Source: Candidatus Poribacteria bacterium (lineage in GTDB: Bacteria; Poribacteria; DTPJ01; WJIO01). From it: a stretch of DNA of 6,640 nt. This document shows, in pieces, positions 848-4,292 of this stretch (positions are counted from its first letter, which is position 1; each line of letters starts with the position of its first letter). The notes beneath the pieces were generated by a model. That model worked only from the letters and a program-made list of their open reading frames with translations. It was not told the DNA's origin and made no database searches. The position numbers and the translations under genes were made by a program. Location: NCBI GenBank assembly GCA_014730235.1, contig WJIO01000242.1, positions 1-6,640 on the forward strand, read 5' to 3'.

Positions 848-1240
848 ATGAAAAAAACACTTATCACAATCACACTAATTCTTACTTTAACATCATCAGT
901 GTTATGCAAAGAACCACCGGAAAAATGCGGTGAATGTCATTCAGATTCCCTCGCTTACAAGGAATGGGAAAAGTCAGACCATGCAATAAGTCTTAAAACC
1001 CTTTTGAAGGATCAAAAATCAAGCAAAAAAACCAGTTGTCTCAAATGTCATTCTGTTGATTATGTATCATTTTCAGATAGCCCCTGGGCATCCCGAAAGA
1101 ATATAACCACACCGGAAACAGCTACTAATCCTGTTTCATGTTCTGCATGCCATAAGCACGACAGCGGCTTTGAACACAACCTGAACGTGCCTGCGGAAAA
1201 GCTTTGTATATCCTGCCATATCAGATTTTGCGGCGGGTGA
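848..1240 (+). CDS. Multiheme cytochrome c, N-terminal part up to an in-frame TGA
   Basis: This part encodes 130 residues starting with a signal peptide (MKK, hydrophobic 5-19), so the protein acts outside the cytoplasm. Four CxxCH heme-attachment motifs follow: CGECH 27-31, CLKCH 64-68, CSACH 98-102 and CISCH 120-124. A YKEWEKSDHA segment at 37-46 resembles the region before a distal haem-ligand His in c554/NrfA-related multiheme proteins. After CISCH comes IRFCGG and then TGA (1238-1240). The same frame continues with good cytochrome sequence to 1720, so this is best read as the first part of one six-heme, 290-codon gene. No Shine-Dalgarno sequence is visible before the ATG. Possible readings are selenocysteine insertion, a nonsense mutation, a base error, or a functional truncated four-heme protein. 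Electron transfer is inferred from the haem motifs; the substrate is unknown. A NIL-ferredoxin gene follows in the same direction. Confidence 0.85.
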   Translation: MKKTLITITLILTLTSSVLCKEPPEKCGECHSDSLAYKEWEKSDHAISLKTLLKDQKSSKKTSCLKCHSVDYVSFSDSPWASRKNITTPETATNPVSCSACHKHDSGFEHNLNVPAEKLCISCHIRFCGG

Positions 1241-1285
1241 CCAGGGGATAATCGGCATGAACATTCCCAGACGGATATGTTCACC
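1236..1285 (+). other. In-frame TGA with a weak SECIS-like fold
   Basis: TGA 1238-1240 interrupts the cytochrome frame after Phe-Cys-Gly-Gly, so decoding as selenocysteine would create a CGGU redox-type motif. The RNA can fold with GGUGA (1236-1240) pairing UCACC (1281-1285), CC (1241-1242) pairing GG (1273-1274), and GGGGAU (1244-1249) pairing AUUCCC (1263-1268). A small inner UC/GA pair closes a GGCAU loop (1254-1258). Bacterial SECIS elements sit just after UGA and carry a G early in the apical loop, which fits. The loop begins only 13 nt after the UGA, shorter than usual, and the lower stem is broken. No selA, selB or selD gene is in the window. Confidence 0.25.
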
Positions 1286-1720
1286 GGCACCGGCGGGTCC
1301 GGTGTTAATGAAATGCCTTCCCGGCATAGTGAAATCATGGAAAACCAATGCGTTTACTGCCATATGTATTCTGTTAAAGGCGAGGAAAAAAAGCGTATTG
1401 AGTTGTTAAACAAAGATCCAAAGCAGCTCAAAGGTGGGCACACCTTTGAGGTTGATAAAAGGATTTGTCTGCAATGTCATGATGAGCCTGATAAGCTTGT
1501 ATCTGAATGGAAAAAAAAGATAGAAAAATTGATTAAACAGTTAAAAGAACTAATGGAAGAAAAACCTGATAAACTTTCAAATTCCTATAAAACAGCCAAA
1601 TCAAATTATAACATGGTGATATACGATGGAGGCACTGGTATTCACAATCCCAGATATGCTGAAGTTTTGTTAAGACATGGTATATATTCCCTTACAACAG
1701 GAAAGGCTTGGGAGAAATAA
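1241..1720 (+). CDS. Multiheme cytochrome c, C-terminal part, in frame after the TGA
   Basis: Reading directly on from the TGA in the same frame gives PGDNRHEHSQTDMFTGTGG and then PSRHSEIMENQCVYCHMY. This is the usual continuation in multiheme cytochromes (H-x-Q-x-x-M-F-x-G, then a CxxCHM heme site). Two more heme motifs are CVYCH (168-172, counting the TGA as codon 131) and CLQCH (207-211). A charged, lysine-rich, probably helical stretch runs from about 217 to 250. The closing segment NYNMVIYDGGTGIHNPRYAE resembles the C-terminal helix of NrfA/HAO-like cytochromes, where a His before Asn-Pro can be a distal haem ligand. The first ATG in this part (1277) has no ribosome-binding site, and starting there would cut into the conserved block and leave no export signal. 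Independent expression is therefore unlikely. The gene ends in TAA, 14 nt before the ferredoxin start. Confidence 0.8.
   Translation, partial: PGDNRHEHSQTDMFTGTGGSGVNEMPSRHSEIMENQCVYCHMYSVKGEEKKRIELLNKDPKQLKGGHTFEVDKRICLQCHDEPDKLVSEWKKKIEKLIKQLKELMEEKPDKLSNSYKTAKSNYNMVIYDGGTGIHNPRYAEVLLRHGIYSLTTGKAWEK
1427..1450 (+). repeat. Perfect 10-bp inverted repeat inside the cytochrome gene
   Basis: CTCAAAGGTG (1427-1436) and CACCTTTGAG (1441-1450) are perfect reverse complements around a GGCA tetraloop. It lies between the fifth and sixth heme motifs and encodes LKGGHTFE. There is no U-tract after it, so it is not a standard terminator. Its function, if any, is unknown. Confidence 0.6.
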
Positions 1721-1734: not shown

Positions 1735-2178
1735 GTGGTATCAGAGAGGGTTGTTTTACGTTTCCCTCGTAAGTTAATCGAACAGCCGATAATTTACATG
1801 CTGAGTAAAAAATATGATCTGGTTTTCAACATCCTCTTTGCCCGGGTTATGCCCAATCAGGAAGGTGTTCTGGTGGCAGAATTAAGTGGCGAGGATGATA
1901 ATTACCAGCAGGGGATAGATTACCTGAAAGAGAATGAAGTTGACGTTCAACTCCTGAGTCGGGATGTAGTCCGGGATGAAAAAAGGTGCACCATGTGCGG
2001 TGCATGTACGGCAGTATGTCCCACCGGGGCTTTATCTATTCCCGACAGAAAAACTATGATAGTTACGTTTGAGGTTGATAAATGCGTTGCCTGCGGTCAA
2101 TGCGTCGAAGCATGCCCATCCAATGCAATGAAAGTTTCCCTGAGTGGGCTTGAAGAATTGGGGCTGGAAAATATATAA
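1735..2178 (+). CDS. NIL-domain ferredoxin with two 4Fe-4S clusters
   Basis: This is a 147-residue cytosolic protein with a GTG start backed by AAGGAG. Residues about 1-77 form a NIL domain, the ferredoxin-like ligand-binding fold also found at the end of methionine ABC-transporter ATPases (VVLRFPRKLIEQPII at the start, GVLVAEL at 44-50). Residues 83-135 form a bacterial two-cluster ferredoxin: CTMCGACTAVCP with Cys 85, 88, 91 and 95, and CVACGQCVEACP with Cys 117, 120, 123 and 127. All eight cluster ligands are present. In methanogens and several anaerobic bacteria, NIL-ferredoxins are linked genetically to homocysteine formation from aspartate semialdehyde with a DUF39 partner. No such partner is visible here, so that role is possible but not shown. 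The gene lies 14 nt behind the multiheme cytochrome gene and probably shares its transcript. The two proteins would sit on opposite sides of the inner membrane. Confidence 0.92.
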   Translation: MVSERVVLRFPRKLIEQPIIYMLSKKYDLVFNILFARVMPNQEGVLVAELSGEDDNYQQGIDYLKENEVDVQLLSRDVVRDEKRCTMCGACTAVCPTGALSIPDRKTMIVTFEVDKCVACGQCVEACPSNAMKVSLSGLEELGLENI

Positions 2179-3065: not shown

Positions 3066-3244
3066 TTAAAAAGCTCCTTCATTTAGTCAAGCATATTTCA
3101 AAAACAAATATGACATTACAGATTAATATCCGATTTCCAGAACCGATCATACTCAGTGCTTTTTATCAGATTTTCCCCATCAATAAGAGAATGAGAGGGA
3201 TTTTTAGCGCGGCTGAAAACTGAAAAACCATTATTGAAAATTAC

Positions 3245-3661
3245 TTAATATTCCTCTTCATCTTCATCTTCGTATTCTTCTTCGTCCAGAAAATCCTCCT
3301 CCTCATAATCTTCATATTCCTCAAGAGTCATTAGTCCTTTGATTTCTTTGGCTGATATAATATGCATTTTCACGAGCCAACCATCCCCTTCTGGAGACTT
3401 ATTAATAAGCTCAGGGGAATTTTCAAGTATACCATTAATTTCCATAACTTCACCGGATACTGGAGAATAGACGCTTATCATTTCTCCATCTATAGATTCA
3501 ATAGATGCAAGATGATCGTCCTGTTCAAATTCTTCCCCTTCTTCCGGGAGTTCAACAAAAATTATACGACCCATATCCTGAATAACACGATTACTTACTC
3601 CAATAGTGACTGTATCCTCATCTTCCATCTCAACCCATTCATGTGTTTTAGTGTACCTCAC
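3245..3661 (-). CDS. gcvH: GcvH-like protein lacking the lipoyl lysine, with acidic tail
   Basis: This is a 138-residue protein with the full glycine-cleavage H-protein fold: RYTKTHEWV at 2-10, VYSPVSGEVMEIN at 64-76, NSPELINKSPEGDGWLVKM at 81-99 and LMTLEEYEDY at 110-119. In true H proteins the lipoyl arm sits on the Lys of an E-S-V-K-A turn. Here that turn reads ESIDGEM (55-61), with Asp in place of Lys and one extra residue, and there is no lysine anywhere between K5 and K88. Lipoylation and the normal role in glycine cleavage are therefore unlikely. Residues 114-138 form a tail with 19 Asp/Glu, 4 Tyr, 1 Phe and 1 Leu, absent from typical H proteins of about 125-130 residues. The start is GTG (complement of 3659-3661). 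Its ribosome-binding site GAGG overlaps the yigZ stop codon, 10 nt upstream, so the genes are probably translationally coupled. No gcvT, gcvP or lipoate genes are nearby. Function unknown; a binding or scaffold role is conceivable. Confidence 0.88.
   Translation of the reverse strand: MRYTKTHEWVEMEDEDTVTIGVSNRVIQDMGRIIFVELPEEGEEFEQDDHLASIESIDGEMISVYSPVSGEVMEINGILENSPELINKSPEGDGWLVKMHIISAKEIKGLMTLEEYEDYEEEDFLDEEEYEDEDEEEY
3248..3322 (-). repeat. Low-complexity GAA/GAT-rich tract coding the acidic tail
   Basis: The last 25 codons of the gcvH-like gene are almost only GAA, GAG, GAT, GAC and TAT/TAC, so the strand shown is a CTT/CTC/ATC-like trinucleotide tract. Such tracts can change length by slippage, so tail length may vary between strains. 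Confidence 0.7.
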
Positions 3662-3671
3662 TTTTATTTCC

Positions 3672-4292
3672 TCACTTAATTTGCTTTATTACAATATCTC
3701 CGTTTAAAGCTTTAATACCATCCTCAAGCTGTGGAATTACACTCGATCTAACAAGTACCTCTGCCCTTGCAATAGAATCCTGTTCCATACCCAATATTTT
3801 CCCTTGCATACGTTTAACAAGGTTAATAACTTTACCTATCTGATCGTATGACATTTCAATCTGTAAACGATCAGTTGGAATATATATAACGGTATCCGCA
3901 TTCTCCAAACAGTCTCTTGCTGTCTGACCGTAAGCTCTTATAAGACCACCAATACCAAGCTTTATCCCACCAAAGTAACGGACTACTACACATATAACAT
4001 TATCCAGTTCCAATGATTCTATCGCTGTTAGTATAGGTTTTCCCGCGGAATTAAGCGGCTCCCCATCATCGCTGCTGCGAATCAATTTATGAGGCCCTGA
4101 ACCTATTATACTTAAAGCATAACAATAATGAGTGGCATTTGGATACTTTTCTCTGATTTTATTAATAAAATTTATGCCTTCATTTTCCGTAGTAACGCAG
4201 GTAGCTAAACCTATAAATCTGGATTTTTTTATCCTGTGTTCTGCTACAGATATATCCCGTATTGTCCTGTATTTTTTATCTTTTTCAGTCAT
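3672..4292 (-). CDS. yigZ: YigZ/IMPACT family protein (UPF0029 plus DUF1949)
   Basis: A 206-residue cytosolic protein of the usual length for bacterial YigZ/YvyE. The N-terminal UPF0029 (IMPACT) domain covers about 11-125: KKSRFIG (22-28), SSDDGEPLNSAGKPIL (73-88) and the hallmark VVVRYFGGIKLGIGGLIRAY (102-121). A ferredoxin-like DUF1949 domain follows at about 140-200. Eukaryotic IMPACT proteins restrain the eIF2-alpha kinase GCN2. The bacterial proteins are related to them, but their molecular role is not settled; a link to nucleic-acid or ribosome binding has been suggested from the structure. The ATG start gives the typical N-terminus, and no clear Shine-Dalgarno sequence precedes it. The gene starts 13 nt after the porin-like gene stops, so coupling is plausible. 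Its stop is TGA at a normal family end point, which shows TGA works as a stop codon in this genome. Confidence 0.93.
   Translation of the reverse strand: MTEKDKKYRTIRDISVAEHRIKKSRFIGLATCVTTENEGINFINKIREKYPNATHYCYALSIIGSGPHKLIRSSDDGEPLNSAGKPILTAIESLELDNVICVVVRYFGGIKLGIGGLIRAYGQTARDCLENADTVIYIPTDRLQIEMSYDQIGKVINLVKRMQGKILGMEQDSIARAEVLVRSSVIPQLEDGIKALNGDIVIKQIK

Follow-up and report, generated by a model that had tools for sequence, protein, structure and literature searches.

Does the in-frame TGA at positions 1238–1240 of this window (the whole stretch of 6,640 nucleotides analysed here, from a Candidatus Poribacteria genome) end a multiheme cytochrome gene, or is it read as selenocysteine (Sec)? 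A preliminary description of the sequence had proposed either Sec or a recent break in the gene. In this study, we compare the interrupted frame with its relatives across the phylum, and conclude that UGA 1238–1240 is very probably decoded as Sec in this cytochrome family.

Results

Reading frame of the cytochrome gene

The frame that opens at ATG 848 closes at TGA 1238–1240 after ...CHIRFCGG (ORF 848–1240), and past this codon the same frame stays open until TAA 1718–1720, running through HEHSQTDMFTGTGG, two further CxxCH motifs and a GIHNP tail (Table 1). The readthrough product of 290 aa carries an apparent signal peptide and six CxxCH motifs, and Pfam places c7/c554-type cytochrome domains on either side of the TGA. 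Because this product matches single uninterrupted ORFs of other genomes, at about 40–47% identity over most of its length, the two halves are, as judged by homology, one protein. The earlier observations that the frame resumes at once behind the TGA and that TGA is not generally recoded both hold; the neighboring acpS-, yigZ- and cdaA-like genes end normally at TGA, as read from their coordinates, and the code is thus standard.

Table 1. Positions of the features of the cytochrome gene and its surroundings in the window
Feature	Position	Strand	Details
Hexaheme cytochrome c gene, TGA read through, 290 aa	848..1720	+	Signal peptide, six CxxCH, C-terminal helical region; homology to OcwA (6i5b), E=1.5e-40
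Heme 1 motif CGECH	926..940	+	
Heme 2 motif CLKCH	1037..1051	+	Aligned with OcwA heme 5 / NrfA heme 1 (active-site heme)
Heme 3 motif CSACH	1139..1153	+	
Heme 4 motif CISCH	1205..1219	+	Immediately precedes the putative Sec motif; pairs with NrfA heme 3 in the alignment
Partner Cys128 of the C-x(1-2)-U/C motif	1229..1231	+	Invariant in close homologs; absent from paralogs and distant homologs
In-frame TGA, putative Sec codon, residue 131 (C128-G-G-U131)	1238..1240	+	Aligned with Cys of DCGC; TGA also in G001/L016 and G079/L017
Candidate SECIS hairpin	1251..1288	+	Loop AGAC 1269–1272, 28 nt after TGA, -13.0 kcal/mol; fits all bSECIS rules, as Cys homologs often do
Second hairpin GGCACCGG-CGGGT-CCGGTGTT	1286..1306	+	Loop CGGGT, spacing about 50 nt from TGA
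Heme 5 motif CVYCH	1349..1363	+	
Heme 6 motif CLQCH	1466..1480	+	
NIL-domain + 2x4Fe-4S ferredoxin gene	1735..2178	+	14 nt downstream of the cytochrome stop, good ribosome-binding site

The TGA column among relatives

A six-frame search of 97 genomes returned a match to the cytochrome family in 76 of them, and 84 whole genomes of the phylum Poribacteria, in most of which the family is present, were searched again with a profile. The close family matches are uninterrupted ORFs except in three genomes, namely that of the host, that of a sister lineage in the same order (G001, loci L016/L045) and that of a distant lineage belonging to another family (G079, loci L017/L046; DTYX01000750.1, isolate UWMA-0232). 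Each of the three has exactly one internal stop, in every case TGA, and all fall at one alignment column, where TGT or TGC (Cys) is found in 27/27 other aligned close relatives; homologs at codon 131, which the preliminary description had singled out for checking, therefore have Cys or TGA and neither Arg nor Gly. The shared position is far from what chance would give, and the occurrence of TGA in three lineages where 27 close relatives have Cys argues for Sec, as does the conservation of sequence on both sides of the codon with the frame kept.

The cytochrome could instead be broken, its Cys (or Arg/Gly) codon having recently mutated to a stop or been misassembled; a single base change turns TGT/TGC, CGA or GGA into TGA, and the contig does come from a fragmented assembly. 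However, we consider a break of this kind extremely unlikely because the same codon recurs as TGA in two other assemblies, one of them from a different order. Moreover, apart from the TGA the frame is undamaged and keeps its six heme motifs and conserved His residues, and none of the close family matches has a stop elsewhere. Of the two explanations first offered for this codon, Sec is thus upheld by the Cys and TGA homologs and by the host machinery described below, and the break is contradicted by the two other lineages.

In the Cys relatives, the heme-4 CxxCH is followed by C-G-C within the motif CHKMD-C-G-C-AGxG (C-A-C in genome G016), and the corresponding putative Sec motif reads C-G-U in G001 and G079 and C-G-G-U in the window. 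The C-G-G-U motif recognized beforehand next to a heme site is accordingly a form of the family motif, one residue longer than in the relatives and placed after heme 4. Both Cys positions of the motif were invariant in the first alignment (14 sequences, U counted as Cys), and the pair is absent from more distant relatives in Pseudomonadota and Ignavibacteria as well as from poribacterial paralogs; by these alignments, the Cys pair is a feature of this cytochrome family. In a quick tree, the three putative Sec members form deep branches, and no fewer than two steps are required for the Sec/Cys change; the branches are long and their order unsure, so that loss of an ancestral Sec to Cys and separate gains of Sec are both possible. 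A search of viral contigs for relatives of the cytochrome found none. We also observed that many close Cys members (L021–L030 and others) have CX4CH (CSSAGCH) rather than CX2CH at heme 6.

Selenocysteine machinery of the host genome

The host genome (5.53 Mb, 451 contigs, 91.6% complete) encodes SelA (530 bits), SelB (366.6 bits), SelD (394 bits) and a tRNA-Sec (selC) with anticodon UCA (79 bits), which argues for the Sec reading; a search for selA, selB, selC and selD had been suggested beforehand, and all four were found. SelD carries one in-frame TGA of its own, in THGAGUACKIG, the usual Sec site of this protein, and the TGA of the window is thus not the sole Sec codon of the host. SelB scored over the cut-off in 75/84 Poribacteria genomes, among them all three TGA genomes, in which it is full-length. 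In G016 (L018, L131; 95% complete), which has the C-A-C form of the motif, SelB over the cut-off was not found.

SelA of the host gave two matches over the cut-off (530 and 424 bits; L124, L125; G000:C246, C64), one of which may be a paralog or contamination. A second SelB-like match on contig C344, together with the adjacent tRNA, was considered as a second Sec system and rejected; this frame of about 400 aa adjoins a tRNA-Trp, its kind recurs across the phylum at about the same score, and we read it as EF-Tu. Formate dehydrogenase was considered as a second selenoprotein and gave no match over the cut-off.

Candidate SECIS elements

Bacterial SECIS (bSECIS) rules call for a loop of 3–9 nt with a G within its first two bases, a spacing of 16–37 nt and an energy of <= -7.5 kcal/mol (PMC13188914). 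The SECIS-like fold in the preliminary description was spaced too closely to the TGA. The hairpin at 1251–1288 is a better candidate, but about half of the Cys relatives' downstream sequences satisfy the same rules. This candidate therefore does not separate Sec from Cys homologs and is no evidence by itself. Hairpin energy alone, tried as a SECIS test, likewise did not discriminate Sec from Cys homologs, and an Rfam scan of the window found no SECIS-type match. In G079 (L017), the hairpin AUCUCA-GUC-UGAGAU lies at a spacing of 29 and, at -6.3 kcal/mol, misses the energy threshold; G001 (L016) has a strong hairpin at spacing 25 that lacks the loop G, and no rule-conforming hairpin of useful stability. 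Within the second hairpin of the window, at 1286–1306, synonymous codons are identical between the window and G001 in 6/6 cases, against 65/112 overall (Fisher p=0.04, uncorrected for region choice), and it is possible that this hairpin forms part of a recoding signal. Tandem hairpins are also found downstream of the TGA in host SelD; the second of them lies at spacing 33 and has a GUU loop.

The indecisive SECIS evidence and an ATG at 1277 downstream of the stop might be taken to mean that UGA is read as Cys, Trp or another residue, through leaky termination or another tRNA, or that the halves are separate proteins. We regard this as very unlikely. A dedicated tRNA-Sec(UCA) together with SelA, SelB and SelD is present, SelD having its own TGA, and the replacement of an otherwise conserved Cys by TGA is the classical signature of Sec. 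As for separate halves, a single frame is kept in other lineages, and the half beginning at the downstream ATG indeed has no signal peptide, as had been stated before, which would bar it from heme attachment through the exported-cytochrome pathway.

Fold and heme arrangement

Profile searches against solved structures matched OcwA of Thermincola potens (6i5b, E=1.5e-40), the undecaheme S-layer cytochrome (6qvm, E=3.2e-32), NrfA (E=7.6e-11), octaheme nitrite reductases and MccA (4rkm, E=3.4e-5). The AlphaFold model is poor (pLDDT 59.5) and was used for superfamily-level comparison only, the active-site placement resting on sequence alignment; its better C-terminal half matches MccA, OcwA and NrfA (against MccA 4rkm, Z 9.1, rmsd 3.2 over 104 residues). 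As indicated by these matches, the cytochrome belongs to the OcwA/NrfA/MccA superfamily, with homology over the five-heme core.

In the alignments, hemes 2–6 of the window protein correspond, in our numbering, to OcwA hemes 5–9 and NrfA hemes 1–5, and the counterpart of heme 2 in both OcwA and NrfA is the five-coordinate active-site heme. The loop carrying the putative Sec motif comes after the CxxCH that corresponds to heme 3 of NrfA. At this place NrfA has VEYY, which includes the catalytic active-site residue and calcium ligand Tyr218; opposite Tyr218 in the alignment, the family has D (KMDC) and the window protein F (IRFC). A His-containing segment after the Sec motif aligns with OcwA HH 380/381, located over the five-coordinate heme 5; the match of these residue numbers to the aligned VHHPH is our reading. 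From these alignments we infer that the pair of thiol and selenol points toward the open face of heme 2, and Sec would probably act beside this open heme.

Gene neighborhood

The ferredoxin gene that follows the cytochrome (Table 1) is its probable operon partner. NIL-ferredoxins are known from sulfide-to-homocysteine assimilation. At the other loci compared, a NIL-ferredoxin next to the cytochrome was not found, and the two adjoin in the window only. Upstream, between an NPCBM gene and the cytochrome, a strong inverted repeat followed by a T-run (AAAAAGGGTGGGTATAATACCCACCCTTTTTTA) at 758–795 is likely a terminator. A W-G-x-[IL]-K tail ends a number of secreted poribacterial proteins that are not related to one another (NPCBM, Laminin-G and others), for example TTWGNIKVVY, SAWGSIKSQY, CWGDLKR, CWGFIKN and SWGSLKAD, with sites at 699–728 and 2253–2280 of the window, at the ends of L045:2237-2980 and 3145-3888, and at the end of the L052:8150-8734 ORF; perhaps this tail is a sorting or anchoring signal.

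Discussion

If UGA 1238–1240 is decoded as Sec by SelA, SelB, tRNA-Sec and SelD of the host, the product would be a periplasmic or secreted hexaheme c-type cytochrome, a poribacterial selenoprotein, with C128-G-G-U131 right after the heme-4 motif. The Sec loop would replace the active-site tyrosine loop of the NrfA/OcwA fold, and the selenol/thiol pair at the open side of heme 2 would form a two-electron redox relay, alternating between the selenenylsulfide and selenol/thiol forms while electrons are exchanged with the hemes and with a small or thiol substrate. We put forward this redox-relay mechanism of the Cys/Sec pair tentatively, as the likeliest of the mechanisms considered, though somewhat less probable than not. 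The putative Sec cytochrome of G079 (L046/L133, L046:2125-3495) carries a C-terminal fusion to a thioredoxin domain that is ResA/TlpA/AhpC-TSA-like and contains CPEC (StoA 3e-12; AhpC-TSA 7.7e-17), and the adjoining gene has DUF1573 and glutaredoxin-like stretches and the apparent start of a membrane part, which together suggest thiol-disulfide chemistry. However, the fusion occurs in one genome only (G079), the ResA-like domain could serve heme attachment instead, and the geometry of CxxU in the window differs from that of CxU in G001 and G079.

It is also conceivable that Sec is inserted and that C-x-x-U is a soft-metal site, for example for copper, next to a heme, as in the heme-copper sulfite reductase MccA. 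The copper of MccA is held by two Cys, C-x-C motifs are common Cu(I) binders, and the fold is homologous to that of MccA by both the structural and the profile comparison given above. A copper atom has been reported in the MccA active site (PMC6703420). Nevertheless, we think a metal site unlikely, given that the motif aligns weakly with MccA, with no equivalent cysteines in the alignment, that the window has the spacing CxxU rather than CxC, and that the fusion partner in G079 is a thioredoxin-like domain rather than a copper protein. Distinctly unlikely is a role in which an inserted Sec ligates a heme axially on its distal side and so tunes the heme potential, the protein being purely an electron carrier. 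Outside the CxxCH motifs there are five conserved His for six hemes, leaving one heme without a strictly conserved His ligand, but such a role has no need of the second conserved Cys of the motif, and the homologous heme of OcwA and NrfA is an open substrate site.

Beyond the redox relay, an open heme of NrfA type with a selenolate in its distal pocket might constitute a novel heme-Se catalytic centre, possibly including a soft metal, an idea we regard as doubtful. If true, Poribacteria would have a selenium-dependent reductase derived from the nitrite/sulfite-reductase cytochrome fold, with Cys replacing Sec in most other lineages of the phylum.

With regard to known systems, a 2026 catalogue lists 119 prokaryotic selenoprotein families, whose heme-related entries include ExtKL, the GSU2204 family and an octaheme tetrathionate-reductase-family cytochrome, and it also includes a UshA-like protein with CxU (PMC13188914). 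The present cytochrome resembles the catalogued Cys/Sec-pair families in having TGA at a Cys site, a second Cys nearby, Sec machinery in the genome and TGA homologs elsewhere; unlike in those families, the SECIS here is not clear-cut, and none of them corresponds to this cytochrome (PMC13188914). Members of the present family stay below the cut-offs of the models for the catalogued Sec cytochromes. Among the papers searched, none joins Poribacteria and selenoproteins.

ExtKL (Geobacter GSU2937-2936, NF040886) is likewise a c-type multiheme cytochrome with a predicted Sec, but its five hemes are N-terminal and its C-terminal part resembles nothing known (PMC1914089, PMC5877670), and a scan of 37 members of the present family with NF040886 gave no match at E <= 0.1. 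The octaheme tetrathionate-reductase-family cytochrome with an annotated Sec (TIGR04315) is also a multiheme protein with a Sec form, and differs in having eight hemes instead of six; 1/37 members matched TIGR04315 (E=0.004), and the window protein did not. The UshA-like PCGU (seleno)protein (NF041198), which is common in Poribacteria, shares a related multiheme c-type domain and a C-G-C/U motif. In that protein, however, CGC/U lies in the N-terminal phosphatase-like domain, whereas the motif of the window protein lies inside the cytochrome, with no phosphatase domain; a relation between the two motifs was rejected on this ground, and the resemblance is taken as a parallel at another site. Against NF041198 (cut-off 275 bits), the best singly scanned member reached 38 bits in the cytochrome part only, and the window protein did not match. 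UshA-like proteins with an N-terminal PCGC and a C-terminal multiheme domain (L134–L145 and other poribacterial genomes) are themselves widespread in Poribacteria, with several copies per genome, and some contain a DsbA-like stretch (L139).

The closest structural comparisons are with the nonaheme OcwA (6i5b) and with NrfA, which share the homologous C-terminal five-heme core and helical region. OcwA has neither Cys nor Sec in the loop after its heme-4 equivalent, and NrfA has a CxxCK active heme and Tyr218, where the window protein has CLKCH at heme 2 and a residue other than Tyr. A Sec in the loop that forms the active site of the homologous nitrite reductase would open heme-selenol chemistry to testing in a protein that is small and soluble and has natural Cys counterparts for comparison. 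Annotation of Poribacteria genomes with standard stops splits this gene in two. Read as one, it would add a selenoprotein family beyond the 119 of the 2026 catalogue (PMC13188914), and one of the few with Sec in a multiheme cytochrome.
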